Origin: Sclerodactyla briareus
Lineage: Eukaryota; Echinodermata; Holothuroidea; Dendrochirotida; Sclerodactylidae
Reading direction: 5' to 3'
Assembly (NCBI GenBank): GCA_026419785.1
Contig: JAODTK010003143.1
Location: 124,001-188,000, forward strand
DNA: 64,000 bases
A program made the translations under genes and the position numbers. Each line of letters starts with the position of its first letter. The first letter of the stretch is position 1. The notes below the pieces were generated by a model. The model saw only the letters and a list, made by a program, of their open reading frames with translations, was not told the origin of the DNA and made no database searches. Positions 16,901 to 58,219 of this stretch are shown here, piece by piece.

Positions 16901-19900
16901 CCAGTGTGGCCCTGGGCACAACATGTGGAATTTAGTAGCCTTCATTAATACAATCTGTGCACAGACTCATGTTTGTAAAAATGTCGTATATATAAAACTA
17001 TAATTGAAACCTAACTTGTGTTTTTCTCCACTCAGAGATGGCCTTGAAAAGAAGTTAACTTTTGGGGCTCAGAGTCCTTTGCCCAAAAAGCCGATTTGTC
17101 ATGGCCTTCGGCCTGCCGGGCCTCCGGTCACCTCTACTGCACCCCATTGCCATGTGCATCTCCCCACTGTATTCTCCAACCTAGGCTATTGTCCACCACG
17201 CCAACGTCAATGGTTATGATAGGCTAATAGCTTGAACATACTCAACACCGAAACTCATTGCTAAATTTGAAGCTAAACTGCAGGTACTTTCCTCATGTAA
17301 CTGCTGATTTTTGTCTCATATTATCAGTATGTTCTCGGTCCCATACACAATAACAAACTACTGTTAAGTAGCATCAGTGTGTAACCCATTTCACTCATAA
17401 TTCCTATCTCTGCCCATAGGCTTCTTCGGATCTTACTTGCTGATTCAACTTTCCAATGACATTCAGGAAGCCTTTCAAGGCCTGTCTAGTAGTCCTGGTT
17501 ATTTTGATCTTGAATAACTCACCTACTCTTTCAAGAAGTGGTTCAAGATACCAATGCAGGGGTGTAACCTGTTTCCAGGTTCCCTCCATGTTACGTCCAT
17601 CCAACAGACAATCAGTGAATCTCCAGGATCCGACCACTTTCTCAGAACTTGGAGAAGCAAAAGATTTCATTCCCCATTGACTGTTACAGCCGACTGCCAA
17701 GAGTTATTGTGAAACCATCCCGACAGATACTTACAGGTCCACTGCACATGCGCAATTGGAGCAGAACCAGAAAGGCAGCCACAATGAAATATTGGGCATG
17801 TTTTCGTATGATTTCAGCTATAGCTGCTTGATCACATTAATGGAACAAAATTTGGGTGGTAGTAGATCAATCATAATTTAAGGCACTAATCACCGTCATA
17901 ATGAGTAATTTGCCTTATTCCAATAGATTGTGTAGTTATTCAACGCTCTTAAGCAGTTACGGGCCATGGGACCAGCTACGGGGGAGCTAGTAATGAATGA
18001 TGTTTTTGACTTATTGGCTAGGTAGATGCAGAAATGGCAGAAGTGTTCAGTGAACATGACTAGATTGTAGCGCATAGAACTCTAGCTGTGAGCAGTTCAA
18101 CGCATGCTGTGTAGTTTCGATTAAGGCACTCTAGACCGGGTATCACACGACATGGGTGGGAATTCTCTCTCAAGTTGTTAAAAACTACATCTTCAACTCG
18201 ATATGTATAGTTAGCTAGGCAATTGCTTCATTCTAATAGTAGAAACCACTGATTGCACAAGCAGTCGAGACACTTTGAAACAGATTCACCATGGCCTTTG
18301 TTCTCTCTCAATTGGTATTCTTTGATGATTTGAAACCGAATAAGTACAATGTTTATTGACTCTAAGACCGCTGTGGCCCATGAGATCAGGTCAAAGGTTT
18401 TCAAAGGGTCGAAAATAGGCAAATTGTTTGAAACTGCCTTCTTGACTTCATGATCTCACACATATGACACATACTTTTGAATTTTTCTTGTTCATTTGTG
18501 CGTTGAGCTAACAGCACCATTGTGCCTCTTGTTTCATGTGACATTACAAACATGATGTTTCTCTTCTACAGGCCTTGCAAGCATTAGTCATGTCGCCCAC
18601 CTCACCATACCCCCCAATACGCCGTGCAGTGTGGCTTTCATGTGAGTTTTTCAATTCCTTGGCGATGTCCGAGTCAGTTATGCAGTCATGTCGTGTGTGT
18701 GTGGACGCCATCTTGTAAACATGATACTTATCAGGTCTGAGTAAGATCAGGCTCATACTTGGTCATGGTGCGTTTCCCCATGGATGAGTACCGAACCCTA
18801 TTGTTCAGGGGGTGAATTTGGTCAAAATCGGAAAAATTTTGTGAAAGTCAATATTTTATGCTTGTAAACTCGTAACTCAACGCCCACCTGGATGGATGAA
18901 GCTCATCAGGTATGTGTGTTCCCCATGATGAGTCCATGAACCCTATTGTTTTGGGGTCAGATCAGAGGTCCACCAAGGTAACGTCCTGAGAACCTTGTAG
19001 ACACAATAGTCCCATAATTGTTGGGTCTGATCAGGTTGAACATTTGGTGGTGTAGCTTTCTTATGAGGAGTCATGAACTCTACTGTTTTTGGTTTAGGTC
19101 GGGTTGAATGTGGTCAGGAATTGAAAAATTATTGAAAAGTCATATCTGGCCAATATTTGCGTGTAAACACGATAACATCAACTCCACTTGGATTGGTGAG
19201 CTCATACTGGTATGTGTGTTCCCCATGATGATTTCATGAACCCTCTGTTTTCGGGGTCAGTCAGAGGTCATCTGAGGTCCAAGTTCGGAAACCTTTGAAA
19301 TTTAGTATGTATAGGAACCCTATTGGCTGGGTTGGTAAAAATGGGTTTGGTCAGACGTTATATTGCTTAAATTTTTATATCATATGAAGCTGACATTCTC
19401 TCAATTTGTCCTTGTTTCTGGCTATAGGTTGTCATAAGAATCAGGATCACTACCTTATGGCTTTTGGCTTTTTTTTTTTTTATGGCGGCGTGGTTATAGA
19501 ATCGTCTCCCATACTCATGCTGCATGCTGATTGCACTCGTGCCTGGATAAAAGCACATGCACACATACGGGACCTTCTCACATTCATGTTGCTCTACTCT
19601 GAATTGTCCTCTTGCAGCATGCATGCATGTAATTTCAGAGTTAAAATAATAAACACAAACTGGATTTGTCTGATACAATGTTATTCCACACAGATACAAT
19701 TGCTTGTTGGTTCAGTGTAGCCGCACAGGGCCACTTTTTCCTTCAAATAGTTTTCATGCATTCGCCTGCAAGGTCCATTTATGGAATCCGGTGTGTGTGC
19801 TGAATCTGGCAGGAGATGTATAGCTTGTGGATTCCCTAGTATATGCACTTGTCGCACTGAGTTTGAGCGCCTGATCTGCTGGGCCTAATGTCTGGAACAG

Positions 19901-22900
19901 GGCAAGGTTCCGCCTTTCCTTGTGTTTGGTCCTGCTGTCAGTGGAAACCGTCCAGGGCGACTCTTCTCCTTGCCACTGTTATCAGTGGCATTGGTGGCAG
20001 TGTGAGTGTGAGCGGTGGATGGTTGGGCTGGCATGCAAAGTCCTGTCGCTGGGTAGTGGCATTCAGTGGTCACCTATCTAGCCAAGGTCAAGCTCTGTGT
20101 ATTCACTCTGAATTGGTCCCAGCTTTCTATAAATGTGAGTGATGGCATGCTAGCACACTGTATACATGTAGGGCTGAGACAAAGGTTTGATTATGCTTTC
20201 CTCAATTTCTTCATATGTTATTGGTTCACTGCTGGCAGTACCCGTGTCGCATACAGGGTGCACAGGAAGTGTGGATATGGTGGGTCAGTTACCCTGATTC
20301 TGTGCATCTCTGTGCATCATTGAGCATATGGCGTGGGATGGCTTCATAGCTCTGGATCGCACCTCTTCCCATTTATTTTATTTAAAAATTTTTTAAAAAA
20401 TTACCTTAGGAAGCTAGTGGGATGGGCACAGGCCTAGGAATGATGGCTGCTCGGAGGAGACCAGGAACTGGACGCGGTGGGGTGAGGCTCCCTGGCATTT
20501 GTCCCCATGAGTGAGTTAGTGAGTTGGGGAGTTCATGAGTGAGTATACCATATTGTATCCCTGTTTGATCATACCAAGACTAAAATGTGTCCTACTGCCT
20601 CTTTGCGTGGTGTTCCACATTCTCCAAACCATCTCGTGCCTTCGTGAAACGTGCCAGGGCACTTCTAGTTATTTAACTGGATGAACAAGGCTACCACATA
20701 CAAACAACTTTGTTAAGATATCATTCTCAACCTGTTTTTCCCTATTGTTTTCCAATATTGGATCCCACACTCTACCACCAATTCTACCGTAATCAAACAT
20801 TCTGGCTAACTTTCTAAAGTCCACTCAGCAGTGGCACTATAGCCCTTGGAAAAGGCAACCACCTTGATTCATGTAAATATCAGGTGCCTGATAACCCTGC
20901 TAGGGTTGGGGGTGTCGGGTCCATTAGTTGGTACCACCCCAGGGTCACGACCTAGTCCGGTTTTGTCGAGCTTGTATGAAGAGAGTTAGATTAAGATCAA
21001 GATCAGGTTATAGTCTTGGTACAAGGCATGCCTCCTTCACACGACTGCGACTTATTCCCCTGGTCATTGTACCTGCTGAATACCTTGTCCTGCCCCCCCC
21101 AGGAGGCACGTTCGCTCACAACATACTAACACACCTGGCAGCCAACGCAGCTTGCGCTACTTCTGTTCTCGCATGTCACCCATTTTTACACGAGGGTAGC
21201 GGTGGAACATTCAAGGAGAAATGCCTTGTCCTAACAGCACTGCAGAAAATCCTCCGGCTTTCAATGGGATTTGAACTCACAATCCATATGTTAAGTCTGA
21301 AGCTCTAACAGACGAGCTAATCATCCGCCTCATCCTGAGAGTAACCAATGTAGGCAGAAAGGTGAGTCCACACATTGAACTACTTGATCAACTAGTTTTG
21401 ACCCTGCGACAGGTGTTCCAAAGTAGTTCACAACTGCATTATCGAAGCTGTGGATGATGCCGCTTGTTTTCCAACAAGTGTTGTTATGAAGTTACCTTCT
21501 TCCAGAATAGTTTTTGCCGTGTTCAAGTAGGTTGACTGTTTTACTTTACTTCCATTCTCAGGGGCAGTTTCCACTGATGGGAAGCTGACGGGCCCAGTCA
21601 AGCCTGTGCTGAACCAAGGACTCGATACTGTACGGAACATAACCAACCCTCAATTATGGTTGGTAATGTACTGGCTTTAATACTTGACTCTAGTGTGTGT
21701 GTGTGCTTCAAACTGTCTGCCAACATGAAAAAAGAAATGGTCACAACTACATGACCTGAAGGGGAACCCACATGTTTCTGGGACTCCTTGGACACTCCTC
21801 CTCACTGAAGATCCAGGTCAATGTGATTAGCCTTGAGCATATCCTTTGCACGGGCCACCCAGCGAATATCGCATGAATCCTTCCCAGTCTCTCCCACTGG
21901 TGATTTGTTCAAATGTCCCCTGATCTGTGACTTGTCTGCCCCTCTACATGCTCTTGAACGTTACCATCATTAATGCACAACATATCCGGATGATTCCATT
22001 AAACGCCCCTCCCTACTAAACGGGGGAGCCCCCACTTTTTTCTCGTCAGTGACTCATTTTTGGACCAAGCCCTGGCCTTTGCCAAGGATCCTACATAGCT
22101 GGAAACGTTTTTCCAAATGAAAATGTAGAGCAGACTGATACCGTGTCCCAAACATCGAGAGATAAAAAATAAACTGTGTAACGCGGTTTGCACAAAGTTT
22201 GAAATGCGCACAATGACCGCAAGAGTGCTGATTACCGACTGTAAATTCTGTCCAACCTGCAAGCATTGTATGTATAGTATAACACTGCTGTGTTTGTTAC
22301 ACGACACGCACACTTCTATCACCTCCTGCACTAGTGCTTACACTACGTTTCAAACATTTTTGTTTTTTTTTATTTTTTTTTTTTTTTGTTTTTTTTTTTT
22401 TTTTTTTTGTTTTTTTTTTTGGGGGGGGGGGGGGTTTTTTTTTTTTTTTTTGCAATACTCAGCATATTTAGTTAGGCCCGTAAGGTTCCAACAACCAGTC
22501 AGTTGCTAAATTCACGTTTTTTATGACTAGTGATAAAATCGCCCCAATGTTACATGGCATAATTTTGACAGTTTGCAAAAGGTAACTTTTGACTTTCCAA
22601 TCGTATGCTTGCTGAAATTTCAACCAATAAATATCTAGTTATCATCTTTAAAAATAGTTTCAAAAAAGTTTTGATCAATTTTTCCATAGGGCGTCTGAAA
22701 CCCATACGTAGACTTCGGGTGTGTGATTTCCCGGTTGTGCCCCCCTCACGCGATCGCCTTGTATCCTGTACCAAGAGAATTTTTCGTCGAATTAGATTTC
22801 GTATTAGGATTATTAGCCAATCACAGATCACAAATCGAACAGGCGAGTCCAATTCCAGTCTCGGCCACGATTACCGTCAGAGTGGTTAAATTTCCCGCAG

Positions 22901-25900
22901 CATTATTCTAGAGTTGTGATTTCGTACGAAGCTTTTTGGGAACTACTTGTTATGGCTAACACAGAACCAGATGTTGTTACTAAATTCAAGTGCATACGCA
23001 GTTTTTCCAGCATACAAATATTTGGACACCATATATCGGTGAGTCACTGTCCACAAAATGGTGAATAACAACGTACTGGACAACCATGCAGTTTGCTATA
23101 CCACAAAAGGAAAAGATCGTCGGCATTTACGGGGTAAATTTTTTGGGGTATTTTAATTAAGACAATGAGAGATTACGCAAAAGTCCACCTATAAGAGAGT
23201 CTCGCGCTATTGCTGGGTGGCTGAATTCCTGCACACATCATTTCTGGACCAAAGGCACTCATCCAACGTCTCAAAACAGATTTCATAACGTAGGAATTTT
23301 ATCTTGAAAATTACCTCTATAAACGCCCCCCCCCCCCTTTTTCGAAAATGAACCCCCCGGGCTTTAATGGAATAATATTGTAGTAACACATATGTCATGA
23401 GTCCGCCAGTATAGCATGAGTGCATCCAGCATGTTGAATATTCAGATCACCGTCTGACCAATTAGAAACACTACTAGTTCATGAAAGATTCTAATCGGTT
23501 AAGTACGCTCTCAACTTCAGTAAATGATAATATGACTTGTGTTGGGAGTATTGGGATTGGCTGATCGATGGTCCGAATCAACGAGGCCTACCGTGAGCAA
23601 GACACTGACATCATAAGGTCGCACAATAAGTGAAGATCCAATCAAACAATATGTGGTCCTCTTCCAGGATATTCAAAGTTTTGGTTTATCCTGTTTTTTA
23701 GCTTCAACCCAGCTACGCTGGTTGAGCTATTGGCATCTGCATGTCACTCTATCTATCCTAATCTATCTATCTATCTATCTCCCTTCTATCTATCTATCTA
23801 ATCTATCTATCTATCTTATCTCTCTCTCTATCTTCTATCTATCTATCTATCTATCTCACTATCTATCTATCCATCCATCCAGCCTCATCATCCATCCATC
23901 CATCATCATCCATCCATCCCTCCATTCCATCATCCATCCTCCATCCAGTGTGTCATAATGCCTTTTTGGCCCCCAAACATTCATTCTGAGATGCTGTTAT
24001 CAATTTACATGTATGGTCCGTGGGTAGAGTGCCTTAGAATTTGTTCAGGAATTTGGGGCTCAAGGCCCAGTTTGGGCCTAAGGGCCCTTATATGAAATAC
24101 CACAAAATCTTGTATCTCCTCCCAATAGTTGCGCCATGCTGATGTTCAGTCATAATAATGGTCTAATAGCCATACCTTCAGGGTGCCCAGGAATTTAGGA
24201 CTCGAGGCCTGGTGTGGGCCCAAGGGCCCATCATGTGGAATTACGCAAAGTGCTTCTCCTCTACAAAGTTTGGTGCACTGTGCTGACATTCGGTCATAAT
24301 GATGTTCCCCACAGTCGTACTTCCGGGATGTTCAGGATTTTTTCATCCAAGGGTTCCCGATGGCTCATTCTATTAATTCACACATGTAATCACACATTAG
24401 TACTTGAAATGCATCTCTTCCCACAAGTTCCAATTGATTTTCTTTAAGTTACATATAATACTCCTTGGTTAGTAGTCCATCAGGGTGTTTGTGAATCCTG
24501 GCTTATGGCCCAATGTGGGCCCTAAGGCCCATTTTAAATCACGCAAAATGCTTCTACAAATTTGGATGCCTATTGTCAGTGTTGATGTTCGGTCATAATG
24601 ACGGTCTAATCGCCCGTTACCTTCGAGGCTCCCAGAAATTTTGGACCTGAGACCCAGTGTTGGGCCCGAGGGCCCATCATGTTCGATCACGTAAATGCTT
24701 ACCCTCCTACATATTTTGTGGCACAGTGCTGATTGTTCGATGATGGAATTGCCATACCTACAGGCTTTCAAGAATTTATTTTGGGTCCAAGGTTTCACTA
24801 ATTGGGTCCTACAGCCTATCTACCCGATCCAGTGTGTCAACAAGTGCCTTTTGGCGCCCTAAACAGTCTTCTGTAAGATTTACGCAAACTTGGACCAATG
24901 TTAATTGACCTTGGACATGCTTGATTTTGTGAAGGTCATGGTCAAAGGTCGTTAAAGCGGTAGTATAGGCCATTATGAGTATAATTTCCAAATGTAATCT
25001 CCACACAATACATTAGATTTTCTTGAAACTTCCTCAATGTTCCTCTTCAGCATGGTTTTGCAGATTTTGGATGCAACATCATATAGTGTCATTAGAAATA
25101 AACAGTAACATTTGATGAAAATAAGCAAAACAGTCATTCTTCGATGGATGTTGATCAAACTTGGATCGAATGTTCATTGACCTTTGGGACATCTTTGACC
25201 ATGTGAATGTCAAGGTCATGGGTCATTAAAGTGACACAATAGGCCACCGTGTGAAATTGCCTTTTTCTCTCTCAATTGATCATTCTTTGATGGAGGTTGA
25301 CCAAACTGAGTAGCAATGTTCATTGACTGCTATTGACATCTGTGGCATATGAAGATCAATGTCAAAGTTTGTTACAGGGGCACAATAGGCCATTGTTTGG
25401 AACTGCCTTCTGGGTCTCATGATCTTGAGCATTTAACACATTCGTCTTGGTACATTTGTGCGGTTTGAGCTACAGCAACAGTGGTGCTCTAGTTTATTAT
25501 TTTTTATGCTCAAATGGTTCACATTTGATTTATTGGTGGACTACACAGTAGATTTTCTTGAAACTGTGTCATAATGTTCTCTCTTCAGCTGGTTTGCAGA
25601 TTTTGGATGCAACATCATATAGTGTCATTAGAAATAAACAGTAACATTTGATGAAAATAAGCAAAACAGTCATTCTTCGATGGATGTTGATCAAACTTGG
25701 ACCGAATGTTTCATTGACCTTTGGGACATCTTTGACCATGTGAATGTCAAGGTCATGGGTCATTAAAGTGACACAATAGGCCACCGTGTGAAATGCCTTT
25801 TTCTTTCTCAATGATCATTCTTTGATGGAGGTTGACCAAACTGAGTAGCAATGTTCATTGACTGCTATTGACATCTGTGGCATATGAAGATCAATGTCAA

Positions 25901-28900
25901 AAGTTGTTACAGGGGCACAATAGGCCATTGTTTGGAACTGCCTTCTGGGTCTCATGATCTTGAGCATTTAACACATTCGTCTTGGTACATTTGTGCGGTT
26001 TGAGCTACAGCACCATTGGTGCTCTAGTTTATTATTTTTTATGCTCAAATGGTTCACATTTGATATATTGGTGGACTACACAGTAGATTTTCTTGAAACT
26101 GTGTCATAATGTTCTCTTTTCAGCTGGTTTGCAGATTTTGGATGCAACATCATATAGTGTCATTAGAAATAAAACAGTAACATTTGATGAAAATAAGCAA
26201 AACAGTCATTCTTCGATGGATGTTGATCAAACTTGGACCGAATGTTCATTGACCTTTGGGACATCTTTGACCATGTGAATGTCAAGGTCATGGGTCATTA
26301 AAGTGACACAATAGGCCACCGTGTGAAATTGCCTTTTTCTCTCTCAATTGATCATTCTTTGATGGAGGTTGACCAAACTGAGTAGCAATGTTCATTGACT
26401 GCTATTGACATCTGTGGCATATGAAGATCAATGTCAAAAGTTGTTACAGGGGCACAATAGGCCATTGTTTGGAACTGCCTTCTGGGTCTCATGATCTTGA
26501 GCAAATTTAAACCACATTAGTCTTGGTACATTTGTGCGGTTTGAGCTACAGCACCATTGGTGCTCTAGTTATTATTTTTTTGCTCTCAAAATGGTTCACA
26601 TTTGATATATTGGTGGACTACACAAGTATACCAGGAGTTCTGCCTTCTGGTACCCTCATAGACATAAAAATAATGTAATATGCGGAAAACGTCTTTGGGT
26701 TGAGTTCTTTGTGCCAATTCTCTCAAGGGAAGCAGTGGTTTTTCAGGAAGCATTTGTATTTGTTAGGCTCCTAGAATGAATCACTTTGAAAAGTTTGGAG
26801 GATTTCTAGATAATCTGATGCAGAGTCTATCGTGGCTTTTTTCTTTACTCTCCTATTTTTGTGTGTTATTCCTTGGTTGAATGGTTCACATTCAGCACTA
26901 AGACATGAATATGAAGATGAAGCTAAGACAACTTTATTGGACTGGAGATTTGTCTTTCTCGTGATTACGAATACACAAAAGTTTCCATGTGTCTCCAGAG
27001 GGACTAGTCGGCTTATGGGTCCCAATGTGATTTTGAGAAGCCATGCGAATGAGGACTAGGAGGCATTAGGGCTTAGCGAATGACTATAGAAGGCACGGAT
27101 AATTGAGTGCCTATTACTCCTATTTCTCATGCTGTACCAAAAAATCCATCATACGTCGTGCAGTGTGTATGCGTACGTGCAGAATGTATCATTCTGAATG
27201 CAGCATAGGTGCACTGTGGCACAAGCAATGTGTCCTGGGCATAGCATGCACATGGAACACCTATTCCCTGCTGATAATGTTCATTTATTGTTCTGATTCC
27301 ACAAGTTTGAGTGGTCCAGGCATAGAGGTGGAGCGACCGAGCCTGAAGATCCAGGCCTACTATATGGAGTTCTATTTCACAGTATCCTGAATAAGCTTAG
27401 AAAAAGATCTGCTAATGTAGTGACTCCTCCTCTTGAGCATGTGTTTCATCTACTGTTCCATGAGGTAACTCAAGGTGAGATGTTAAAACCTCTAGGTATC
27501 TCAATGGGAATTCAGGCTTGCATATAACGAGATCAGATTATATAAAACATGGAAAACAAATTAGAAAGACCAAATTCAGGACAGGATTTAAAACTAGAAA
27601 CAAGCATAACCTAAATTGACATGAGTATTCAATTGAGAAAATCAAAATAGCGCATATAGGAATGTTAAAATTTGGTTGCACTAATCTGGAGGAACACATC
27701 CGACACATCAGAAAGTTGGCTAAAAGAGAGGACTATTTGTTGTTCATTTTGTCTCGCCTGAACTGGTTTAAAGGAGAGAAATAGTGGTCACTTTGTTGTG
27801 TGTGGTTCTGTATGTCCGTTCTGTCGGGATGTCTGTCTGTCTGTCTGTCTGTCCGGTTCGTCAGTCTGTCTGTCTTCGGTTGTCTGTCTGTCTGTCTGTT
27901 TGTCTGTCCGTCTGTCCGAATGTGGGTTCTAGGTGCTCGTGAGATGTGTGGTGGTAATTTGAGGGTTTCATTAATAAAACAACATCTACAGAAAGGTCAA
28001 CAAGGTCAAAGGTCAAGTTTTAAGAAAATGTTGGCTTTATTTCAGGAGTTACAGGCCAAAGAAATAAAAACTGTCGATGCTTGGAGATGTGATAGTTCTC
28101 TGTCTGCTACACAGACGAAACCAACTCCCGCTGCGATCTGACACCCTGGTCTCAAGTTACAAGGGGCCAAAGGTTGATTTAATACCTTTTGGCCGATAGC
28201 ATCGAGATGTGTACATGAACATAATGCTTTTGGGATGTTTGCATCACATTGAGGCAAGCATTTTTCATAAAAACCGTCATGTCATCAAGCGTCATCGAGG
28301 TCCAAAGAAAAACTGCAAATAATAACATTTTCTGAAACATTCTAGTGACTGTTGTGATCGGCTGAAATTTTGGGATCATGATTGCATAGATCAAGGGTAA
28401 CATTTCATTTTAAATCGTAGTCATCAAAGTTTCATTTCATAGTCACTTAGGGACCAAAAAACTGCAAATAATAACATTTCCGGCCAACAACCTCCAGAGA
28501 CTGTCCGCTACTGTGTAGAAGGTATAGTCTTTGGGCACCCCTAGCTCATGACCAGCATGATGCTGATGAAATCACTGTATTATAGCTTGCTATCAATTAA
28601 CAAACTTTGCAGAGTTTTACTCGTTTCAACCCCTCAGGCATGTTACTTCCATTCATCCTAAATTAGTATTCCTATCTGTTTGCCAGACAGAGATCTCATA
28701 TATTTTCAAAACCTGCCTTTTACCTTGAGGTTCACTCTTGCCTGTCATAAACGATCTTCTGGGCCCCCTACACTGCCATATAAAGTTAAACACTAAGTCA
28801 TTGGTTTTACTTACTCCAGGCACCTATTCAAGAATAGAATGAAGGGTGTTAGGTTACACCTGCAGAAGCTCCGGTGTGTGAGATAGGGGGTATTAAATGG

Positions 28901-31900
28901 AATCTTATGGGTGAACACGGAGTATAAAGACAAACTTAATTAGAGAGGACTAGCCGTCCATATGAGCTGTGGTTACCTTTAGTCTCGCCAACAAATGTTA
29001 ACATGAAAGTTCACTCGGGGTTTTATGCAGTGTGTATAAATTGCTTGATCATGCAAAGTTCAAGTTTGTGAATTCCGATGATGAACATGTATTAAGTGTG
29101 GTTCACAATTGGTCCGAGATAAGTGACCAGAGTGAGGGAAAACGAAAAATGGGTCAACAGAAAGTTGATTATTGTATAATTGCCGAATTTAGGCAACTTA
29201 GTCACATTTCCACAAAACTTATATGGTAGAACATTGTCAATAATCAGTCCTTACGGATTTGAAATTGGTCACTGATTAGTAGGGCGTTCTGTCAATTGCT
29301 AATACCAGAATCTTAAAGCAGTCTTAAATGCCTTGCATTGTTTGCATGGTGACTAATAGACTGAAACACTGATCGCGTACCAGGCGAGACACTGGGGGCG
29401 GTCGCCTTGTTTGTAATCGCTCATTTGTTTATATTCAGGGTAACCTGTCCAGCAAGTCCCATAATCTGTACCAATTTTAGAGGACTTGCCGCCTCCAATC
29501 TACCCTAGAATGATGCATCTTTTCCACAGGTGGAGGATTTGTTCTACAATGTTGCCACCAGGAGGAAATCTCTGAAGAGCCCGTCAGAGGGTGGAAGCAC
29601 GGGGAAGAAGATCTTGAAGGTGGTCAGCAGTGTATGCGATACACAATGCAGGGACTCATTCACACTCAAGAAGGTAATAACTTGGAGGTGAACCACTATA
29701 GGGGATATGTAGGGAAAGTTTCGTACCAGTTCTACAAAATGATAACAGATGCTCCATTGCATTTCACACAATAATAATATCCTATGTAATAATATATGGG
29801 TACTTCAAATAGCATCCTTTCCATCATAGTGCTCAGGGGCCCTCTCGTCAGGAAATTACCTATCATAGGAACTGGGTTGCACTCCCAGGGAGAGTCTGTG
29901 GCAGCGCTAATACACCACTGGTTGTACTCTTTAGTCCCCACAGTCCCCTTTATTTAAGCCACCTGGGGTGGAGAGGGGCTCCGTCATGATGTATCTTGCC
30001 CAAGGACACCTCGGAAAAGCTGATCAGCTTCTGTGGGATTCAAGCTCACAATCTATCGATCAACAGCCTGAAGCCCTACCGACTGAGTAAGCAGATAAGC
30101 AAACAGCCGAAGCTCTCTATCAGTCAATTTAACTGAAAGGATCAAAGGATGGTTTCTTTGGTTCCTGGGGATGGATTGGCTATTGGTGGAGCGCAGGACT
30201 GACAGAGACATGGTTGTTGAGTTGAATTCTTGAGAGACCCAAGAGACCAATCAGCGGTCCTAGTGTGTGGGTGGGCAAGGCACTTGTCTTCAAGCTCTAC
30301 TCCACCAGAGATGATTGGGGACCTGGAGGATCCGAGGGACCCCCGCACTAATTGGCAAACAGCAAATCCCCGGGATGTTCAGAGATTGTACTGTGCAGTT
30401 AGGGTAATTATTGAAGTGCTGCGGAACATGAATGGAGACGTTGGAAAGCACTAACTATATGGCACACATATTTTTTTAGAATCATTGGGACCATGGACAG
30501 TAATTCATATTCCATACATTTAGGAAATCCCAAACTCCTGGCCAATTCTCAGTTGATATATACATGCAATGACTTGGTTGCAACAACATATCTGAATGAC
30601 ATATCATGGAACCCTGTCTAAAAAAAATATCAGTGCGAAAATATTTCGACTGGGCTGATAAAGGGACAAATGTGCCTCTGTTTAGAATTCCCATTCTTCC
30701 TCAATACTACCGTCTTTCCCTGTCAGGAGAACTGAGGACAGTTAATACTTGAATATGTTACAAGGGAGTAATATGAGCGGGTCTGGTATCAATTCTCTGA
30801 AATATTTCAACTAAGTTGGAAATTTTTGAATTAGGAAAACTCAACAATGGGTCAGGGTGTTGCAAGGAAGGAGTTTGGGTATATTGATCTGCTGTCTCCA
30901 TTGCCATATTGAATTGGGAACAGAACTTTGTACAACTTTTTATTAAAAAATCATTTCCTCTTCGCAGCAGGACAAGTGGCTGTGATGTCAAGAACACTAG
31001 CATCAGCCACACTGTAGATAAATCAGGACAGTGTTTTGGTCGCCAGTGTAGCAGGTGAGTTCAGCGACCACTGTAGATAACATCGAACAGTGGTTTGGTC
31101 CAGTGCATCAAGGTGAGTTCAGCGCCTACCATGTAGCTACATCAGAACAGTGTTTGGTCCCAGTGCAGCAAGGTGGTTCACGACCACTTATAATAACATC
31201 ATGACAGTGCTTGGTCCCATGTAGGCAAGGTGATTCATAGCCCACTGTAATAACATCAGGACATGTTTGGTCCAGGTAGCATGGTGGTTCAGGCGACCAT
31301 CTTAGATAACATCAGACAGTTAGTTTGGTCCCAGTGTAGCAAGGTGAATTCAGTGACCACTGTAATTAACATCAGGACGTGTTTGTCCCAGTGTAAGCAT
31401 GGTGAGTTCACAAGCCAACCCTGTATATAACATCAGGAGTGTTTGGTCCCAGTGCAGCAAGGGTTTAGTTTCAGCGACCACTGTAGATAACATCAAGGAA
31501 GTGTTTGGATCGCCAGTGTAGCAAGGTGAATTCCCATGAGCGACCACTGTAGTACATCAGGACAGGTTTGGTCCCAGTGTAGCATCGGGTGATTTCAGCG
31601 ACCACTGTAGATAATCATACAGGACAGTGTTCAGTCCCAGAGCAGCAAGGTGAGTTCAGCGACAACTGTAGATAACATCAGGACGTGTTTGGTCCCCGTG
31701 TGCAGATGAATTCATGACACTGTACGATGACATCGACAGTGTTTGGTCCCAGAGTAGCAAGGTGATTCACACCCCAAAACCTGTAGATAACATCAGACAG
31801 TGTTTGGTCACGTGTAAGTCAAGTGAGTTCAGCGACCACTGTAATAACATCAGGACAGGGTTGGGTCCCAGTAGCAAGGTTAATTCAGTGACCACTGTCA

Positions 31901-34900
31901 TAACGTCAGGACAGTGTTTTGGTCCTGGTAGCATGGTGAGTGGTTCACGCACTGTAGATAACATCAGGACAGGTTTGGGGCTCCAGGTAGCCAGTGAATT
32001 CAGTGACCAATGTAAGATACATCAGGACCGTGGTTTGGTCCCAGTGTAGCATGTGAGTTCAGCCACCACTGTAGATAACATCAGACATGTTTGGTCCCAG
32101 GGCAGCAAGGTGAGTTCAGAGCACCACTGTAGATAACATCAGACATTGTTTGGTCCCAGTGTAGCAAGTGCATTCAGTGACCTCACTGTAGGTAACACAT
32201 GACAGTTTTGGTCCCGTGTCGCAGGTGAGGTCAGCGACCACTGTAGATAACCTCAGGACATTTTTCAGTCCCAGAGCAGCAAGGTGAGTTCAGCGACAAC
32301 TGTAGATAACATCAGACATGTTTGGGTACCCAGTGAGTCAAAGAAAATTCAAGTGACCACTGTAGTGACATCATGACAGTGTTTGGTCCCAGTGTACAAG
32401 ATGAATTCAGTGCCCCACTGTAGATGACATAGTACAGTGTTTGGTCCCAAGGCAAGTTGTTCAACGACCCGGTAGCTTGACATCAGGACAGTGTTTGGGG
32501 CCCAGAGTAGCAATGTGAGTCCACGCGTCCCCCACTGTAGATAACATCCAGGACAGTGTTTAGGTTCCCATTTAGGCAGGTGAATTCAGGGTGACCACTG
32601 TATATGACAGAACAGTGTTCAGTCCCCATAGTAGCAAGTGATTCAGCAACCCTGTAGATAACATCAGGACAGTGTTGGGTCCATGCAGCAAGGTGGAGTT
32701 CAGCGCCCACTGTTAGATAGCATCAGGACGTGTTTGGTTCCCAGTTTAGCAGGTTATTTCATTGACCACTGTAAAATAAAATAGGACAGTGTTAGTCCCA
32801 GAGTAGCAGGTGAGTTCAGCGACCACTGTAGATAACATAGTGACAGGTTTGGTCCTTTGCATGCATCAAGGTGCATTTCGAGCGAACACTGTAGATAACA
32901 TTAGAACAGTGTTCAGTCCCCATAGTAGCAAGGTTAGTTCAGCCCCCACTGTAGATACATCAGGACAGTGTTTGGTCCCAGTGTAGCAGGTAGTTCAGCG
33001 ACCACTTGTCGATAACATCAGGACAGTTTTCGCCCAGTGTAGCAAGGTTAGTTCACAGCGAACCACTGTAATAACATCAGACGTGTTTGGTCCCATGTAA
33101 GCAAGGTGATTGTTCAGTTAACTGATTGCCAAGGAGTTTCAATGCCAAATCCCACAGAATACTCCCGTTCATTGAAACAGCAACAGAAATATATAGTCTT
33201 TGTTTCCCAACCATTTTTATACTCTGAAAGACAAATCTGACACTTTGTTTTCATGTGTAGGAAGGAGACTGGCGTAGTAATTAGGTGAGTCCCACTGTGG
33301 CCACACAATCTTCAGGCCCTGTCTTGACACTTCTTTCTCATAATATCACATCAGTACTGTGATTGACTACTGCAGGAGGATGTCACACGTCATGAAACCC
33401 TGGAACAAGACCATCAACCTCTTGCCACTCTAAATTAGCCAGGACCTTTTGAACTGATTATGTGGAAACTGATCGATTTATATCAGGATTTGAACAATGA
33501 AGGGTGAAACTTTATTAAAATGTGAAACTTTATAAAATGTGAAACTTTATAAAATGTTCAGTGATTTTCAAAGGTTAAGGTTACCCTGTATTGCCAGTCC
33601 ATTCACCATGGTGGCTTAGTCAATAATACGGTGGCAGTTCCTTTGGTTTTATGGTTTGGTTGAATTATTTCTCTCTATTTTTGGGCAGAGAACTTTAGAT
33701 TGAACCAGAAAAACGTAACTCGACTTCACGATCAAGGGTCACATCCTCTAATATGCCAACTACTACTACTCATCAGAAGTGTGTCCTCCTACCCTTCATA
33801 ACTCGTGAGTAACACATCATTTCACTGCTCTCATAATTGTTGCCTAAAATGAGTCAACATTGTTGATAACCTTCTGTATTGCTCTCGTCATCTGTGTGCT
33901 TGTTATATTTTTTAAAACACACACACCGTGACTCATCTCTGCTTCTCGAAGGGAAAATAATGTGCAAGACAGTATTGGAAGCAAACCAATTTCATGTAAT
34001 ATCTGTTGACCAGCCGTGTTTACAAGCCCACCGCAAACTATAGGGCTCTCATTCGTGCCCGGGGTATATTAATTCGTACAAGCATGGCAGGGAAGTTCAT
34101 TTACCAAGGATGTCGGAGGCACCCTGATGTGTTGGAGGTGGTCTGGTTCCCCTGTTCATTCTGCTTCTGCTTGTGTTCCATAGCCTGCTCAGCAGACGAT
34201 AGAGGAAGCCTTGCTACATAGAGGGGGCTATCCCCCTTTATTATCATACCATAGTTGAATATTACCAACATGGAGGACTGTAGGACTTTGTTTGACAAAT
34301 CCCAAGAAAATTGGGATTCTGCTCAAACGATTCAGGTGAGGTAGATGTCAGTCATCAGTAGCACACGGGCATCAATACAGATGGGAGCAATCCTGAATAG
34401 ATTCCGCTAAAAAAGGCTCCACATTTTGGTCATGAAATTTTTACAGAAGACTTTCAATAACCTTTTACAATACCGAGAATGAAAATTTATCGAAGATCGA
34501 TGCATTTGAAGCCTGGAATGAACTGAAGCCACTGGTTGTAGCTAGGTGCAGGCGTATTTCCGCTTGTTTGGTATCGCTGCACAATTCAGAAAAATATGAA
34601 TCCTTCAAATGGGGAATTAAAAAAGAATATCCATCTAACGTATGCTAAAACTAGGTTGGAGGTTTGTCGAAACAATTCCAGATCAGATCAATTGAGTAAT
34701 TTCCCAGCAGGTGTGGCTGTTTCCCGTATTTAGTAAAATGAGAGAATGTTCGATTGCACATCGCCCGCTAGTCCTGCCCATTATCAGTTCGAACGACGGC
34801 AAGCTCACAAAGTCGTCACAGGCGTTTGTTTGGGCAAATCACCGATTGGTTAAAGGGTCATCCTGCACATATGAGTGAATGAGGCTGATATGAGGTGAAC

Positions 34901-37900
34901 AAAGTCAAATGCATGGCCTGTTTCAACAGGCTAGTGTTTCGGATGATGTTTAATGGACATTCTGCCACATATTTTCTAGAGAGCGTGCTGGTTATTGGGT
35001 ACCGATTGAGGTCGGCTCATTGCACAGCTCGAGCCACCTGCCCGAAGGCACCATCATGCATCCAAGCTGAAGGTAGATTCTGCTTTATTTGTTTGGTTTA
35101 TATAGACTGTAGGGATAACTCATACCCCCCCCCCCCCCCCCCCCCCTCATTGCCAATCAATGAGGACCACTGAGGATACGGAACCCTACACAGCACTGGT
35201 TTACCTGCTCAGGCAGCCTACTGTGGTAGTAGCTGAAGGTGGTTTTGTCTCCTCATGCCCTTTTTGCACAGGGTAAGGTTTGTTTACTTAGCTAAGCTGC
35301 CTGCATTACGGTTTCCATATCTCTGATTGAGAGGTCGTTGGTACCTCAAGGGAGGTTGGGGCAATATGGGCTATTTTTATATCGTTCTGATCAACTTATA
35401 CTCCAGGATTGAGTGCTCACCTGGTTTCCATTTGTATATCCATTGTGGACCACTATGAACAATTGGTGGTAAGCCACTATAAAGATACAATATATTCTTC
35501 TAAGCACTCAATTAATCACAGACAGATTGGTTGACTCGTCGAGTTTGCGGAAAGCCATCGAAGCTGTCTACTCGACTTACTTGCCAAAAGGGATGCATCC
35601 ATTCCTATACCTAAGGTAGTCAGTCTTTATATCTCACTGTCGAGATTTCACACTTGTGATATACTACTGTAAAACTCCAAAAATCCAAAATGTTAGAACA
35701 AAACAGCATGATAGGGCAATGAGGCAGTATGGAATTCTGCAGAGCTCCTTTCCCCCACCCCTTTGTCAGGTTGACAGGCATCAGGAAGGAAGGAGTAGTG
35801 CAGGTGGGAGACTGCAAAATTGAGAAAGACACATGTGAAATGGTTGACAATGCAAAGAAATAAAGAAAGAAGAGGGCCATGTCTGTCAGAAGTGAAGTGC
35901 AGAGGCTGGAGGGCAATTGGACGAGGTTAGAGGAAGAGAGAGGCCCAGAGGGCCACACCATGATTGTTTACAAGACTATATGGAGGCACTTGCTCAAGGA
36001 GATGCACTTACAATAATAATAAGGAAGAGGAAGATCTACCTCACCAGTACCCCTTGGGTAATAAAAGTAAAACAATAATGCAATTGTTAGTTCCATTTCC
36101 ATGTTCCGTTCTTGCTGCTGGGGTCTCCCGCTGGTCTTGTTTGGCTGAATTGTTTGTGTTTTCCCTAGTGGTGCCTAGCTCTGCAGTCGCAGGCCTGTGT
36201 ACACCTCTAGGAATCAGACTGAAAAAAAAAAAAACAGTCTCAGGCTAGATTCCATAGGTGGGGATGTGAGATACAACGTGACATCAAGAATAGTGGATTC
36301 AGCACGTGAAAAACATGAGGAGTATCTTAATCATCTACAAATAGTTGCAGAGATGGGACGAGTTCCATAGCGGCAAAGTATCATCCAAATAGAATGGAAC
36401 AAACTGTGAGTAGACAAAACAATGCTGCACCAACGTCAAATTGATTCAATTGAATATCTTTTCCTAATAGAGGCAATTTTACATCCCGATTTTAATTCCC
36501 CTCCTAAAATATCACTTTGTTGGCACAATTCTGATTTTCCACATTCATACTGCCTGCACACAACATCCCCATCTATGAAATTCTAGCCTAATTGTCCTTT
36601 TGTGTCATATGGCACTCCAAGTGTCATTCATATACCTCAAGCAAATGTCAACAGGGAGAGTATCAGAAGAGATCCTGAAGGAAACGTAGCATTCTGAGAA
36701 AAATATGCATGTACTGCATAGACACTTAGGAATCACGAAACTATTATGCGAACACCTGCAAATTTCACTGCGGAGGCAGTCTGGTGTTGATAGAAATTAC
36801 ATATCAAGTTGGAGAGTCCATCGTTCCTAAACTGGACAAGGGTACCAATTCTTACAGGCACGAAAGGATATCCAAAGGAAAAACAGCACTATCCTCCCGA
36901 AGGGGGATGTCATGTTCAACATTGATGGAACTGCTTCTTTTCTCCATAATTTCTACCTGGGTTGAATGGCACCCAGGGGGAAGATTTGGAGAGTAGGAGG
37001 TGTGGAGGATTTAACAGCCGGACTGTACAGAGAATGAGGCAAGGAGAAAGAATACCACACTATGCAAATGGCGTAATTCAAAATTTGCGCACTCTGTCTG
37101 GCACTGCTTCCCCCATACTAGCTGTTGGGCTCTGTGACAGTGAACGTTCCCCAGGAGGGGGACCCATTTGCCAAAGAGGCGTTTGATGACTTCTTGAGAA
37201 TCCTGCCAATAAGCCCAACTTGATCAAGAGCCTTTTCCATAATGTAGGTCATGTAGTAATCTTGCAAGCTATTGCAACGGCAAAAAAGTTGCGACAGAAT
37301 TCTCACAGGCACGAAAGGATATGTGAGTGAGGATCTAACAGCCCATACGTAACGGAATAAGGGAGAGAGAAAGAGTACCACTCCTGTTTGTTTCAGCTAT
37401 GCAAATAGCTAGTTCTAGCCTAGTTCTAAATTCGCGCACTTTGTCTGGCACTATACGTCCCACACACTACGTTGGCTCGCGACAGTGAACGTTTCCCCAG
37501 GAGGGGGACCCATTTGCCAAGGTGGCGTTTGATGACTATGGCTTGATGACTTCTTGAGAATCCTGCCAATAAGCCCAACTTGATCAAGAGCCTTTTCCAT
37601 AACGTAGTAACTTGGCAAAGCTATGCAACGGCAAAAAAGTTGCGACAGAATTCTCACAGGCACGAAAGGATATGTGAGTGAGGATCTAACAGCCATACGG
37701 ACAGGAAATAAGGGAAGAGAAAGAGTACCACTCCTGTTTGTTTCAGCTATCAATACTTAGTTCTACCTAGTTCTAAATTCGCGCACTTGTCGGGACTATA
37801 CGTCCCACACACTAGCTGTTTGGCCTCTTGCTACATGAACGTTTCCCCAGGAGGGGGACCAATTTGCCAAGGTGTCGTTTGATGACTATGCTTGATTGAC

Positions 37901-40900
37901 TTCTTGAAATCCTGCCAATAACCCACTCGATCAAGAGCCTTTCGCATAACGTAGTTAACTTGGGCATAAGCTATGCAACGGCGAAAAAGGTTGCGACAGA
38001 AATCCTCTGCGTATTTCGAGAAGCATTTTTTTTTCAAAATTCCCCTCCGAGGCCACCTCACACCTCTCAATTGACAATCTCATAAAATCCTAATGTTAGG
38101 AGCTGATACTTGTGACTGGTGGGTTAAGACGGAAGCATAAGTTACCATCTGTGCCCCTCTGTCTATGGCTGCAGTAACAACATGTTGGATATTCAACATA
38201 CTGTGGGGTGTTGGATATGTCCTGCGAGTTCAAAACATCCTTTTAACATTCACATGAACATCGGCTTTTAAATCACGTCATTGTGTGTGTTTAAATTTGA
38301 CTCTGAACGTATTACCACCGTCCAGCTCTTGAAGAACAATTGCAGGCCTGGATACAACAAAAGCAATTCCTGGAAAATTGGGAAACTATCTAATAGGCCC
38401 TAACCCATTCCCATAAATGTTCCTATGGGGAGGTTATGGCATTCAAAGTTTTGGTCATATGCTGAGAAATTGGGTAGAATCCCCAATGCACATAATGCAA
38501 TGACATCACACTTGACAACGCCGGGAAGTCTATTTCATGTATTTTCATTGTTTCTTTTGTTAAAAGTCAGGCATTTGTCAGAAGTTCTGTTGTCTTCACT
38601 CACCAAAGTAACCATCAACACCTCCACCCATTAACAGCAATCCTCTCCCATAGACTTAATGCTTTCTGATTGAAAATTGTACTGAATTCCAATGGAAACA
38701 AAGATTGTATGCATGTTTGTGGCCGAGTATGACATCATTTAAATATTGCATGAATGGGATGCTCCTCCGATCTTGCACAATATACATGCACAAACTTAAA
38801 AGGTCTGAACTCCATACGGAAGGTCGTATTGAACTTAGGGTTTGGACGGATGCATTCAGTTTTCCTCCTGCGGATATATTAGCCTCTCCATAATCATCCT
38901 GCAGTGGTCCTTTAAAAATCTGAATTTTGAGCTTCGTATCTCTCACAAAATAAGTTAGGTTTCTAGAATTTGCACAGTCATTCCAATCCTTCAACACCCT
39001 GCGCCTCGAGATGCCCCCGAATGTGACGTCAACGTCCACCCCCAACCACACAACCAATCCCACAAACACCACAACTGGGGGAGTAAACATGAGGTCAATT
39101 TCTTGCACGAAGAGGACATCATCGAGGACATCCAGAAGACCATTGAAACGAAACTCCTCAGCTGGAACTCCTCGCGAACGTATTTTGCTCAGGTATGACG
39201 GCATAGTTTTGCTCCTTGTTCAGGAAGCACTGCCTTTATAGGTGGCTATCACCAACACTAAGCCAGTTTACATCAATTCTGGTCACCCCCAAATCCTTGT
39301 GACTGATATTTTCTAATTAGTAATAATCGGTAGGAGTACTCCCCCAAAGCACTCAGCTGTAGGTGCTCGCTACCTGCTGGTGATGCGTTAGTTGTGGAGC
39401 AGCAGCTCTGCTTAGACACCATGTTTGGTCTGCAATGCAATCATTCCATAGGCCTCATGCTGTAGTAACGTGATCCCATGGCCTATACATTAGCCAACCC
39501 TTTCCTCCATCCGTTTGCCTGTCCTATGGCTACTTTGTATATACTTCTTATATACTTTAACTACTGGCAGTAGTTTTTTATTGTGATGCCCATGGGTAAC
39601 CCTGATCCTACTACACGTAACATCTTATGGTTTGACAAAATTACTGTACTTAACAGTAATCCTTCCAAATCCTGCTCAGATTCCCACTTCCCAATGGGGC
39701 TATTTGGAGTTACCAGATACAATTACCAGTTAGCCTAAACGGCCTTGGGTCAATGCGCCACTGCAAGGAATATTGATATGAAATTTTTCAGAGCAAAGCA
39801 TACCTCGCATTCTTTTTCACATGGTACTTTAATAATTCAATGAAGAATCTGCATTGACACATATGATTCCATTACAGATAGACCCGATTCTCACTGGATA
39901 TAGTAGATACAACTGTAATAAACAGCTTTAGCAATGATTCTTTCACATTCCAACACAATTTCCATGCAAAATTGAGGCATTCTTTCGGCAGTTGATAGTT
40001 TAAGGGCTACTAGCTGTTGGTTTTACTGGGTGGAGCTACAATTTTGAAAGAATAAGAAAAAAACTGGGAACACATATTGCAAGCACGCACAATTGTTCCT
40101 GAACCCCTTCCCTGATTCAATGTTATAATTGGATCGATCATGCTGCCTAAATACAACCCCAGTGAACTGGGGAGCATGGCTTTTTATTAGTATAGTGTAG
40201 GTCCATGGGCATGGATAGATCTTTGCTCCAAGGAAAGTTGTGGGTGCTTATGGGAGAGGGGCAGTATCCAGAAGGAATCTGGTAAAACTTGTGGTGCTTG
40301 CCCCCTTGATCAAGGATTATAGAATAGGCACCCAATGAGGGAACGATGTCGAAATGTGGATAGAAGGTTGTGTTATAATAGTAGCTAAATTCTTAGTTGG
40401 TACCAATGCTTCCATCTCTTCTACCAGGCGGCCCCGTACCCGTGTCACGAAGTGACTTCCAAGGATGGTCAGAGGCGAGTTTCGAGACCTCGACCCCCAA
40501 GAGCCGTGAGACGGTACATCAGATGGTCCGGACGATGCGAGGGAGCAGAAGCTTGATGCTTTCATTCCATCGTCCAGAAATCAGCTCAGACCAAAGCAGA
40601 GGCGGGGCCCAGCAGGAAATCCCATGCAGGGTCAGGGGGGTCGAGAGACGGATCACCCCAAGAGGCCTGGAGATGAGCAGGTTCTCCCGCCCTATTGAGT
40701 AGACACCACCACAGATCGCCAGGGAGAAAGGCAATTTACCCTTACCTGTTTACAGTTTACCTGGAATCTGTGGTTGAATATTTAAGACAACAAATACGTG
40801 GAATCACATATCACTCTTCTTCTGTTTTTAATTTTTTTATTTTATGAGAAATTCTGAAGGCACCAACAGCTTCAGTGGAGTACTTTTACAAGATGCATGT

Positions 40901-43900
40901 TTTTGATTAATTGGATTTTAAACACTACAGTTTTTAGAGCCAAAAACTCCGGCAGAACATATGCCAAAGAATCTAATTGATTGACATTGCAGATTCGAAC
41001 AATATTGGCTCAAAATCTAACCCAGTCTTTGCCAGTGTGGTTGTGACTTGGCATGTTTGTGTATTTTTTGCTTGCTGCCTTGATCCATTCAGGCCTTTAT
41101 TCCATGAAGCTACCTATCTTTAACTGGATCTATTGTATGGACGTAAATAAACTACGATTGAAAAAATCTGGTTTGAATACGATATTATCGATGCGGTCAA
41201 AACAAAACAAATTTATTCTGTTCCGGCCGGCCGACTACTCTGGAAATTCGCGTCTGATCACCATTTTCTCACATACAAAAATGGAATTTGAATGCTGTAC
41301 TTTGACTGAAGTTCTTCTTGTAAATGGAGTTTTTGAATGGAAAGCGTGGAATGAATTTTCCATATCATTGAGCTTGAAGCCTTGAAGGTTGAATGGAGCT
41401 TTACGACTGGAAATGAATAAATATCTACCCCATATCCCCTCTGCGGAGAGAACGATTGACCAGGTTTCCCCTCTGCCACTGGAGAGGAGCCTCCTTCCTC
41501 TGAAGAAGTCTGGGGTGAGGCAAGAGCCAGTGGTCCCCCTTCAAGGCAGCACCACCGACCGATCAAGCTCACCAGCATCCTGAACCTGCAGCAGTCGGTA
41601 GAGGAAATGAGCCCACCAGGGATTGAGGGCACTGTTCAAGAACGGCACCCGTCGTTGCTTGCGCAACGCTGAATATGCATGCTCAGCATCATACGAACTG
41701 TAACCTTTGTAAACACTAATACGAAATGAGGTTAGTCTCGTGTGTAGCTTGTTGGTTGAACCAGTACGGGTATTGAGGGTATTTTTGAGGAACCACACCA
41801 TAACAGAGATGAGGGTATTTTTGAGGAACCACACCATAACAGAGATGGAGGGTATTTTTGAGGACCACACCATAACATAGATGGAGGGTAATTTTGAGAA
41901 CAAACCATAACAGAGATGAGTCTTCTTCTCCTGTAGCAGGGTAAGTTTTTGGGTTTATAGAAGGCATGCAATGTGATCTATAGGGATCACCCAGACAATG
42001 GTCATACCAAGTCTTGAAAAGAATGTGCCGTTTGCTATGGTCCCTAACTGAAAGAGTGGCTGTGGCAGCTTCAGTCAAAACGGTTCTGAACCCTTACAAA
42101 ACCACAGCCCTACCTAATACAACAGTCAGACATCTATGGATTTACAAACCTCTGACATCGAACACCATCTGAACATCAATCTGAAATATCCAACCATCCG
42201 TGGTTGAGAATCCGGGACTGACCATAGTTCATTAACATAGTTTACCAGGGACGACCTAGTCCATTGCTCTTGTTTGCTAAGCTAAACAGGAGTCATAACC
42301 CTATCTATTTCTATTTCCATCACATTGAAGAGTCCCTATCCTAGCAATGGAGCAGGGAGTCACTCTAGGTTGTGAATTAAAACGTACTTTAATTGACTTT
42401 AAAGATAACTGACAGCAATCTCCGCCATCCAGCTCCACAACCGATTCTCTCATTTCCGGCTGTCAGTGTTGACGTAATGCTCCATGGAGTTTTGCAACAT
42501 CCCCGTTCGCTATGAATAATTCACCTTGCATAGGATTAATTTTGGGTGCAACTGAGAATTCGAGATAATGTTTTTTTTTTTTTTTTCCACCTATGTGGAA
42601 ACCCTTTTGACCTGATGAGTCATTTTGCTATCATGTTTATAACTAGGTTGCAGAGTGTGTTGTCCTAGTCTCGGACAGATTCTTGTGGGCCTCTGTGTTA
42701 ATTATTCCGACATAGCTTGAACTAGCATCCATGGCTGGCATTGAATTCAATTCATTATATCTGACTGGTCATATTTTGTTCTCTCCTCAGCAAGGAGCTA
42801 TTCTACCAACTGTTCCTGTTCGATTTTGGGAATTTTGGGAATCAATGAGCTTTCATGGAGTACAGTAACATTCTGGAACAGTGTTTTTGACATAGGGTGC
42901 TTCTCAGTGCCGCCTATTTTTTAGATAGGTCACTCCTGCGTCGTTGTTTTCTGTACATTTCAACAGAAAAGATAGTCTAATGGATTTCAGTGCACATGAA
43001 CTGTTCAGAATTCCTCAATTGCTCAATGCCTCATTTTGGCACGAAATGTCTCTTATCCAGCCCATCTGCCCTACAAACACCGACTGCTTTTGTCTCACAA
43101 TCCTCCTCCAACATCAATAAGGGTTTGCAACTTCATTGAATTTTATCTGAATATTCGAATGTAACCCTATTACATTTCTACATACTGTTAAAAAGATCTT
43201 TGTGATCATTGCAATGGTAGAGTGACTATAGAGAGTGGGTGCTTCAAACAACTACAATCTAGTGATTTCTGCACAAAACTGAATGTCAACCATGTCGCTT
43301 ATGGCGCGTGGATGAGGGTGAAGGCAGTGTCGACTATAGTTGCCAGTGGCAACTCAAAGGTTCCGTGTCTTCATGACTACTGTCGCCAGTTGTTCAAATA
43401 ATTCCCTACTAATTTTAGAGACGGTAATATTTCCCACTCACACATGATCAAATTGAATGACATGACAGTACTTTGTATGCATTGGCTAATACTAGACTCC
43501 GTGGTGTTGTAGCAACCCTCCGTTATAATGACCAAAGTAGCTTCCTAAGTCCGTCACGTCACATTCATGAAATGCCCGTCCCAACACCTCCATGCTTCTG
43601 GCCAAGCAGATTTTTGAAACAGTTGACAATGGGGCGGCCAAATCAACCAACCGGTGGAGTACAACTCTCCATTTTTTCTTGATCGAGTATTATTGGAACG
43701 TTATATGCGAATCTACTTGCATATAAAGGGAAACTCTATACCAGCGATGGACTACGGTGAGCCAACCTGACATCATAAATGGCACAACGTAGAGCCTGTT
43801 ATTCCAGTGATAGCTGGCCAAAATTGCCAAACATCAGCCTAAATGGAGGGGGGGGGGGGGGCACCTGTTGCAAGGAAGTCCCGATGAATGTTGACCTAAC

Positions 43901-49310: not shown

Positions 49311-49895
49311 GTAATTTAATGCCAACCCTCTCTTCAAATTCCTTTCCCTCTCTCCTTCTTGGGTTTCATTGATAATGACAGTCCTTTAAAACAGTATTCA
49401 TCAATTGTGTACCCCGCATGCTCCATCCAGAGGAGGGCCCAAAAATAGCAGCTCCATCATCCCTTTGTGGGTTTCAAGAACTCCTGGTAAAGTTCATTAG
49501 CTAAAGTCCAATAGGTCTACGAGTGAGACTTTTTCTTGAGGTATACATCACACCCACATCATTTCTGAGGGCTCTGTTTCCAGAAGTCCACAGCTTCATT
49601 CTAACTCTGAAAGTGGCCAAGAATCGATTGAATTGAGTGAGTAAAATCTGACAAGCATGAACTACGAAATGTGACCAACATTACCCCCAACTGGCCCTAA
49701 CATCTGTAATTTCGTTAAAAATGACCACAACAACATATGGTGAACCTGGTAAGTTCATCAATGGAACAGCCGTAATAACAGATTGGCTAGTTGAAACATG
49801 AGGACCCTATCAATACAAATTGGTGTCTTTGGAATTGCTTGCCATTCTGGAAGAACCACATTTTACTTTTTGATAGTAACCAACCCTTCAGTTTT
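49311..49895. other. Intron after exon 16, no gene
   Basis: Unassigned sequence. Confidence 0.4.
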
Positions 49896-49901
49896 CATTC
49901 C

Positions 49902-50645
49902 TTGACGAAGTCGGACTCTATGCAGTCAAGTTGTGTGTGTGTTTGTGTGTGTGGTTGTCCCACTGTAAACACAATTCTTGATCAGGTCTGCGTAGATCAA
50001 GCTCATACTCAGTAATGTTTGTTCCCCATGATGAGTAACATGAACCCTAATGTTTTGGGGGTCGGATCAGAGGTCCCTAGATGTCAAAGTCTGAAAACCT
50101 TGTAAACACGATAATTCAAGAATGTTTGTTCTGACCAGGTTTAATTTGGGTATGTACTTTCTTATGGGGAGTACAGGAGCCCCTATTGTTTTTTTGGTCC
50201 AGGTCGGGGATGAATTTTGGTCAAAATAGAAAAATTCGAAAAGTCCATATTTCGCCAATTTTGGCTTGTAAACTGATAAACTATACCCCACCTGGATTGA
50301 CAAGTTATACTTGAAATATGTGTGTTCCATGTGATGAGTCGAATGAACCTATTGTTTTGAGGTCAGTCAGAGGTCATCTGAGGGTCACCAGACGTCAAAG
50401 TCTGAAACTTTGTAAACCGATAATTCCAGAATGGTTTGTCTGATTCGTTTGAAATTTATTGTGTGCTATCTTATCAGATTATACGGAACCTTAGGTGTGG
50501 GTTGGGGAAATGTGAAATTTGTCACACGAGATGTTTCCCATAATTAGTCTGGTACGATCTCCCATTTTTCCCTTGTGTCTGGCTATTGTTTGTGGTCAGA
50601 AAAAGTCAAGTAACACGTGATCCTTTTGGCTTTCTGGTTATACCT
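49902..50645 (+). mobile_element. Family A composite element
   Basis: Head 'ccttgacgaagtcggactc' / 'tatgcagtcaag', a (TG)n run at 49930-49955, two monomers, and tail 'gatccttttggctttctgg' + 'tt' near 50620-50640. The tail gives the cleanest CTGG-TT ending of the family. Confidence 0.7.
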
Positions 50646-50659
50646 TCCATCCCAGCCGT

Positions 50660-51335: not shown

Positions 51336-51336
51336 C

Positions 51337-51480: not shown

Positions 51481-51489
51481 TGTTAGACG

Positions 51490-52300: not shown

Positions 52301-52329
52301 GTTTTTTTGTTCACACACGATCCAGTCAC

Positions 52330-58217: not shown

Positions 58218-58219
58218 CA

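Follow-up and report, generated by a model that had tools for sequence, protein, structure and literature searches.

The end of MLH1 exon 8 and its 5' splice site are repeated in tandem at the start of intron 8, and the resulting array is probably a neutral intronic minisatellite, born across the exon-intron boundary of MLH1, whose first donor is the one used in splicing.

The MLH1 gene and the array behind exon 8

The window (the whole stretch of DNA analysed, 64,000 bases) holds an animal MLH1 gene on the + strand, with exon-like matches in order over 10871..63643. An unguided tblastn search of the window with human MLH1 gave 7 matches at E ≤ 0.05, all seven in gene order. Frameshift-aware alignment, run in stretches preset by hand from the tblastn matches, extended the matches from human residue 4 (10871) to residue 756 (63643), the exon 14-15 row being a weak match; exon numbers beyond 7 to 10 are row labels and may differ from the human numbering. 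When exons 7 and 8 were read in a consistent frame, all 77 residues aligned with human MLH1 (PDB 4p7a, E 8.2e-18), and no other PDB chain came up at E ≤ 0.001. The ordered tblastn and frameshift-aware matches, together with that to 4p7a, assign the gene to MLH1 throughout. In the Pfam search, exon 10 matched PF01119 (DNA_mis_repair), and the other three of the four MLH1 pieces, the exon 7 and 8 reading included, gave no match at E ≤ 0.001; in Rfam, the window gave 0 matches at gathering thresholds. The MLH1 exon for human residues 555-572 (row 16) lies in a 1.1-kb stretch that is present twice, at 42449-43551 and 45432-46547, with 80% identity and 153 gap bases in 1,186. The first copy showed 0 frameshift steps and the second 3, and the pair is either an exon duplication or one locus assembled twice.

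Exon 7 (29530..29673, + strand) ends at the donor AAG/GTAATA, slashes marking exon edges. Exon 8 (30968..31054, + strand), which lies between the acceptor TTCGCAG/ and the donor CAG/GTGAGT, contains several apparent small indels, because of which its unedited letters match MLH1 weakly (tblastn E 46 over 30984-31055; frameshift-aware score 47 with 4 frameshift steps). Exon 9 (AGAACTT... KCVLLPFI, about 33689..33804, + strand, edges read by eye), with the donor CTC/GTGAGT, aligned weakly with human residues 236-262 in the frameshift-aware comparison (score 47, with 3 frameshift steps and 1 stop). Since this exon starts with AGAACTT, the codon joined across exons 8 and 9 is AG/A GAA, which gives the R E of human MLH1.

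Unit 1 of the array (31009..31066, + strand) is the end of exon 8 plus the first 12 nt of intron 8, and differs from the consensus by 5 indel bases and 0 substitutions. It is followed within intron 8 by 35 further 59-bp units (31067..33117, + strand), made of 47 exon-derived and 12 intron-derived nt and occupying 2,051 of the 2,634 bp of the intron, and then by the remaining 571 nt (33118..33688, + strand), which end in TTTTTGGGCAG. Tandem Repeats Finder (TRF), the check proposed with the initial annotation, reported a 58-bp period and 36.0 copies at 31003-33109 (score 1769), and wrap-around alignment gave a stable 59-nt consensus in 36 units at 31009-33117, preceded by a 6-base partial start. 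As the end of exon 8 is counted among the 36 units, the array of about 35 copies annotated behind exon 8 is real in the assembly, but it ends at 33117 and not, as annotated, at 33110. The consensus, ACCACTGTAGATAACATCAGGACAGTGTTTGGTCCCAGTGTAGCAAG/GTGAGTTCAGCG, reads as a 17-residue peptide followed by GTGAGT, in agreement with the description of a unit of about 47 nt of exon end and about 12 nt of intron that spells the MLH1 peptide. With a 59-bp unit in 36 copies, the array is a minisatellite (tandem units of about 10-100 bp). Searching the window with the unit at E ≤ 1 gave 37 matches inside the array and none outside it.

The window region is rich in tandem repeats. Further arrays were found at 38-1318, 3219-4083, 6457-7877, 37183-38001 and 41774-41920, and at 25005-26624 a unit of about 535 bp stands three times in tandem, its copies 95-97% identical and much less gapped than those of the exon 8 array. 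Together with the latter and the rows that TRF gave at 25-26 kb, the tandem stretches number eight and, shorter or simple repeats excluded, make up 7,192 of the 64,000 bases (11%).

Birth and growth of the array

The junction at which the array was formed is legible, and shows how a minisatellite can arise from the edge of a coding exon. Exon 8 ahead of the array reads GCA-TCAG-CCAC (exon side of the junction, GCATCAGCCAC), the consensus junction between units reads GTGAGT-TCAG-CGACC (GTGAGTTCAGCGACC), and the sequence after the last unit reads GT-TCAG-TTAACTG (GTTCAGTTAACTG); the raw donor of the last unit, GTGATTGTTCAG, was taken as a probable GTGAGTTCAG with a two-base insertion. A 4-base microhomology, TCAG, is thus common to exon and intron at the duplication junction, and its presence at the exon, unit and post-array junctions indicates that TCAG is where intron and exon were joined in the first duplication. 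The MLH1 homology, the phase of exons 8 and 9 and this junction bear out the origin from the end of exon 8 and its donor that had been proposed initially.

Substitutions shared between units exceeded expectation at a lag of 3 units (0.55 versus 0.28 ± 0.09 per pair, reached in 0 of 500 shuffles), part of the growth having therefore come in three-unit blocks; among lags 1-15 the runner-up was lag 11, whose value was matched in 4.6% of shuffles. A tendency towards lag 3 is seen in the shared indels as well (0.48 versus 0.31, 4.2% of shuffles), so that some of the indels may be real. The only units free of substitutions are units 1 and 36, the two ends of the array, which fits both ends being founder copies; the probability of this pattern for two random units of 36 is 1 in 630, and it was noticed post hoc. 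The array would have started with the tandem duplication, at TCAG, of a segment across the boundary of exon 8 and intron 8, and would then have expanded to 35 extra copies, partly in three-unit blocks, presumably by replication slippage or unequal exchange.

Splice sites, constraint and sequence noise in the units

No unit is free of indels (0/36). Over 2,122 consensus positions, the array departs from the consensus by 107 deleted and 94 inserted bases (201 indel bases) and by 127 substitutions, and 159 of the 178 indel events concern one base. Apparent frameshifts were found in 12 of the 16 other MLH1 exon rows, with 42 steps in 1,883 nt, a count that excludes the rows of exon 8, of exons 14-15 (a weak match) and of 16b, the second row 16 copy, and of which some steps may be overrun of the aligner past exon edges into introns; rows 10, 11, 16 and 19 showed 0 steps. 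The pattern suggests a long-read assembly with uneven polishing, the repeat array being presumably the part hardest to polish. Alternatively, the frameshifts may belong to a decaying MLH1 copy, which this sequence does not tell apart from sequencing error.

Donors and acceptors were ranked with simple scores, that for acceptors being derived from human frequencies; both scores are approximate, and the species may deviate from them. The first donor, that of exon 8, scored 8.5 of a maximum of 8.6, compared with 2.8 for the exon 7 donor and 2.1 for the exon 9 donor. Like the repeats of IFI6, the units carry a 5' splice site (consensus AAG/GTGAGT), and GT is kept in 33 of 36 units in the aligned columns. 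In raw letters, 9 of the 36 units reached a donor score ≥6 and 20 a score ≥4; when gaps were filled with consensus letters and insertions dropped, which by construction biases the counts toward the consensus, these numbers rose to 19 (strong donors) and 30. The exact string AGGTGAG occurs in raw letters at 7 places in the array and at 5 elsewhere on the + strand of the window. The initial statement that most units keep an AG/GTGAG-type donor is therefore not upheld as worded, being too strong for the raw letters. The picture of dozens of authentic donors facing the splicing machinery is borne out by half: strong donors are present in 19 of 36 units after gap filling but in 9 of 36 in raw letters, and the donor positions carry no sign of preservation. 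Donors with a score ≥6 amount, in raw letters, to 4.3 per kb on the + strand of the array versus 0.15 per kb in the rest of the window, and the minus strand of the array has none. Neither the donor score (Spearman −0.13, p 0.46) nor the substitutions in the other columns (Spearman 0.26, p 0.12) followed the position along the array; an impression of weaker donors in the last units, gained from raw letters, was gone once gaps were filled.

Among the 228 AGs of the array, none scored ≥6 as an acceptor and 2 scored ≥4, the best reaching 4.2. The AG before the GT of the consensus scored −3.6 and the best consensus AG −0.4, whereas five of the nine acceptor stretches of the gene itself (rows of exons 3, 7, 8, 9 and 19) scored 4.3-5.9, with 5.8 and 5.9 for exons 7 and 8. 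The score is a blunt one and does not decide the matter: the best candidate of exon 13 reached 3.7 and exon 2 gave 2.2, and for exons 10 and 16 no value above 0 was obtained. The claim that the array offers no acceptors is by and large right but not clear-cut, as two of its AGs reach ≥4 and the gene's own acceptor stretches in rows 2, 10, 13 and 16 stay below that.

The extra copies show no visible constraint. In units 2-36, the distinct changes took up 11 of the 35 synonymous changes that are possible and 32 of the 100 nonsynonymous ones, so that nothing points to the copies being maintained as coding sequence. Over the nine donor columns, 30 substitutions were counted (3.3 per column versus 1.9 elsewhere), the fifth highest load of 59 circular nine-column windows (median 18). 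These columns are more variable than the others, and nothing points to preservation of the extra donors. Sequencing errors may account for singleton substitutions and would then mimic a lack of constraint; of the 13 changes present in three or more units, for which read errors are an unlikely source, 4 are in the nine donor columns.

Readings of the array and relation to known systems

We infer both the use of the first donor and the neutrality of the other copies. Exon 8 would keep its own acceptor and a near-consensus first donor; once this donor is spliced to exon 9, the other copies would be removed as intron and MLH1 would be made normally, and the array, a minisatellite within the intron, would drift neutrally while its decoy donors decay. 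As pointed out initially, read-through past exon 8 meets AGG TGA in the sequence and 59 is not a multiple of three; it follows from the consensus that any later donor would bring this stop at once, truncating MLH1 at about residue 226. A strong donor persists, after gap filling, in about half of the units, which speaks against the neutral reading, as does the chance that this MLH1 copy is not intact. Use of the first donor is not assured either, because in the duplicated-donor experiments of Reed and Maniatis and of Eperon and colleagues, equally strong sites reportedly often favour the donor nearest to the acceptor. Several units might accordingly be real alternative donors, whose in-frame TGA would lead to nonsense-mediated decay, the array tuning MLH1 dosage. 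We regard this as unlikely: the donor columns are not conserved, donor strength is without trend along the array and, MLH1 being required for repair, heavy loss of its transcripts to decay would be costly. What speaks for it, besides the 19 units with strong donors after gap filling and the enrichment of high-scoring donors, in raw letters, over the rest of the window, is the precedent of human IFI6, where two downstream repeat units serve as donors (available text of PMC4526556). A highly doubtful extension of this idea is that the array acts as a length-variable U1 trap setting MLH1 output, in which more strong donors would give more late joins, hence the stop codon and decay; if true, polymorphism of the repeat would adjust mismatch repair from one individual to another.

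The array, or its length, is very unlikely to be an assembly artefact of noisy long reads. Indels in every unit (201 indel bases in 2,122 consensus positions), the 42 frameshift steps of the other MLH1 exon rows and the nearby 1.1-kb stretch, which may itself be assembled twice, all invite such a reading, but a three-unit period of shared substitutions is not expected from random error, both flanks of the array are unique and the junction is legible; the copy number may still be off. Hardly credible, finally, is a role of the units as stepping or new-intron modules, in which the AG/GT of each unit would serve as both donor and acceptor. The AAG/GTGAGT within the unit recalls the tandem AGGT duplications linked to introns in ATP2A1 and fission yeasts (available text of PMC4974935), and two AGs of the array reach ≥4, more than some acceptor stretches of the gene itself, but the consensus AGs lie far below the five better own acceptor stretches, and a normal acceptor is present at exon 9. 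The locus offers a natural duplicated 5' splice site experiment, with many donor copies in the same exon context, one acceptor and a repair gene that fails on a wrong choice. It is a natural test of the first against the acceptor-near donor.

The minisatellite of the human interferon-induced gene IFI6 (6-16, G1P3) was reportedly described by Turri, Cuin and Porter in 1995, and its unit is 12 nt long. The MLH1 array resembles it as a tandem repeat whose units carry splice donors, but has a unit of 59 nt that copies 47 nt of conserved coding exon. According to the available text of PMC4526556, which cites Turri 1995 (cited also in that of PMC2572611 and PMC2915984), two downstream repeat units of IFI6 are used as splice donors, yielding three mRNAs; later-donor use is thus reported in IFI6 and hypothetical in the MLH1 array. 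A literature search, mostly a surface survey, found no published report of the MLH1 exon 8 array. The initial impression of novelty holds to this extent for the array itself and is weakened by IFI6 (PMC4526556): a donor-supplying minisatellite is already known as a kind, of which the MLH1 array is a variant and not a new class.

Intron gain via tandem AGGT duplication, as reviewed in the available text of PMC4974935 (ATP2A1; SPOG_01682 and SOCG_00815 of fission yeasts, where several 24-bp copies are involved; potato RdRp), likewise rests on tandem duplication of a splice-site segment at or across an exon boundary. In those cases a new intron is made, whereas in MLH1 it is apparently a pre-existing intron that grew longer, with its boundary retained. 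With ordinary intronic minisatellites the array shares the local tandem arrangement, the short junction homology, the three-unit pattern and the lack of visible coding constraint; unlike them, it has an identifiable founder, the end of a coding exon together with its donor.
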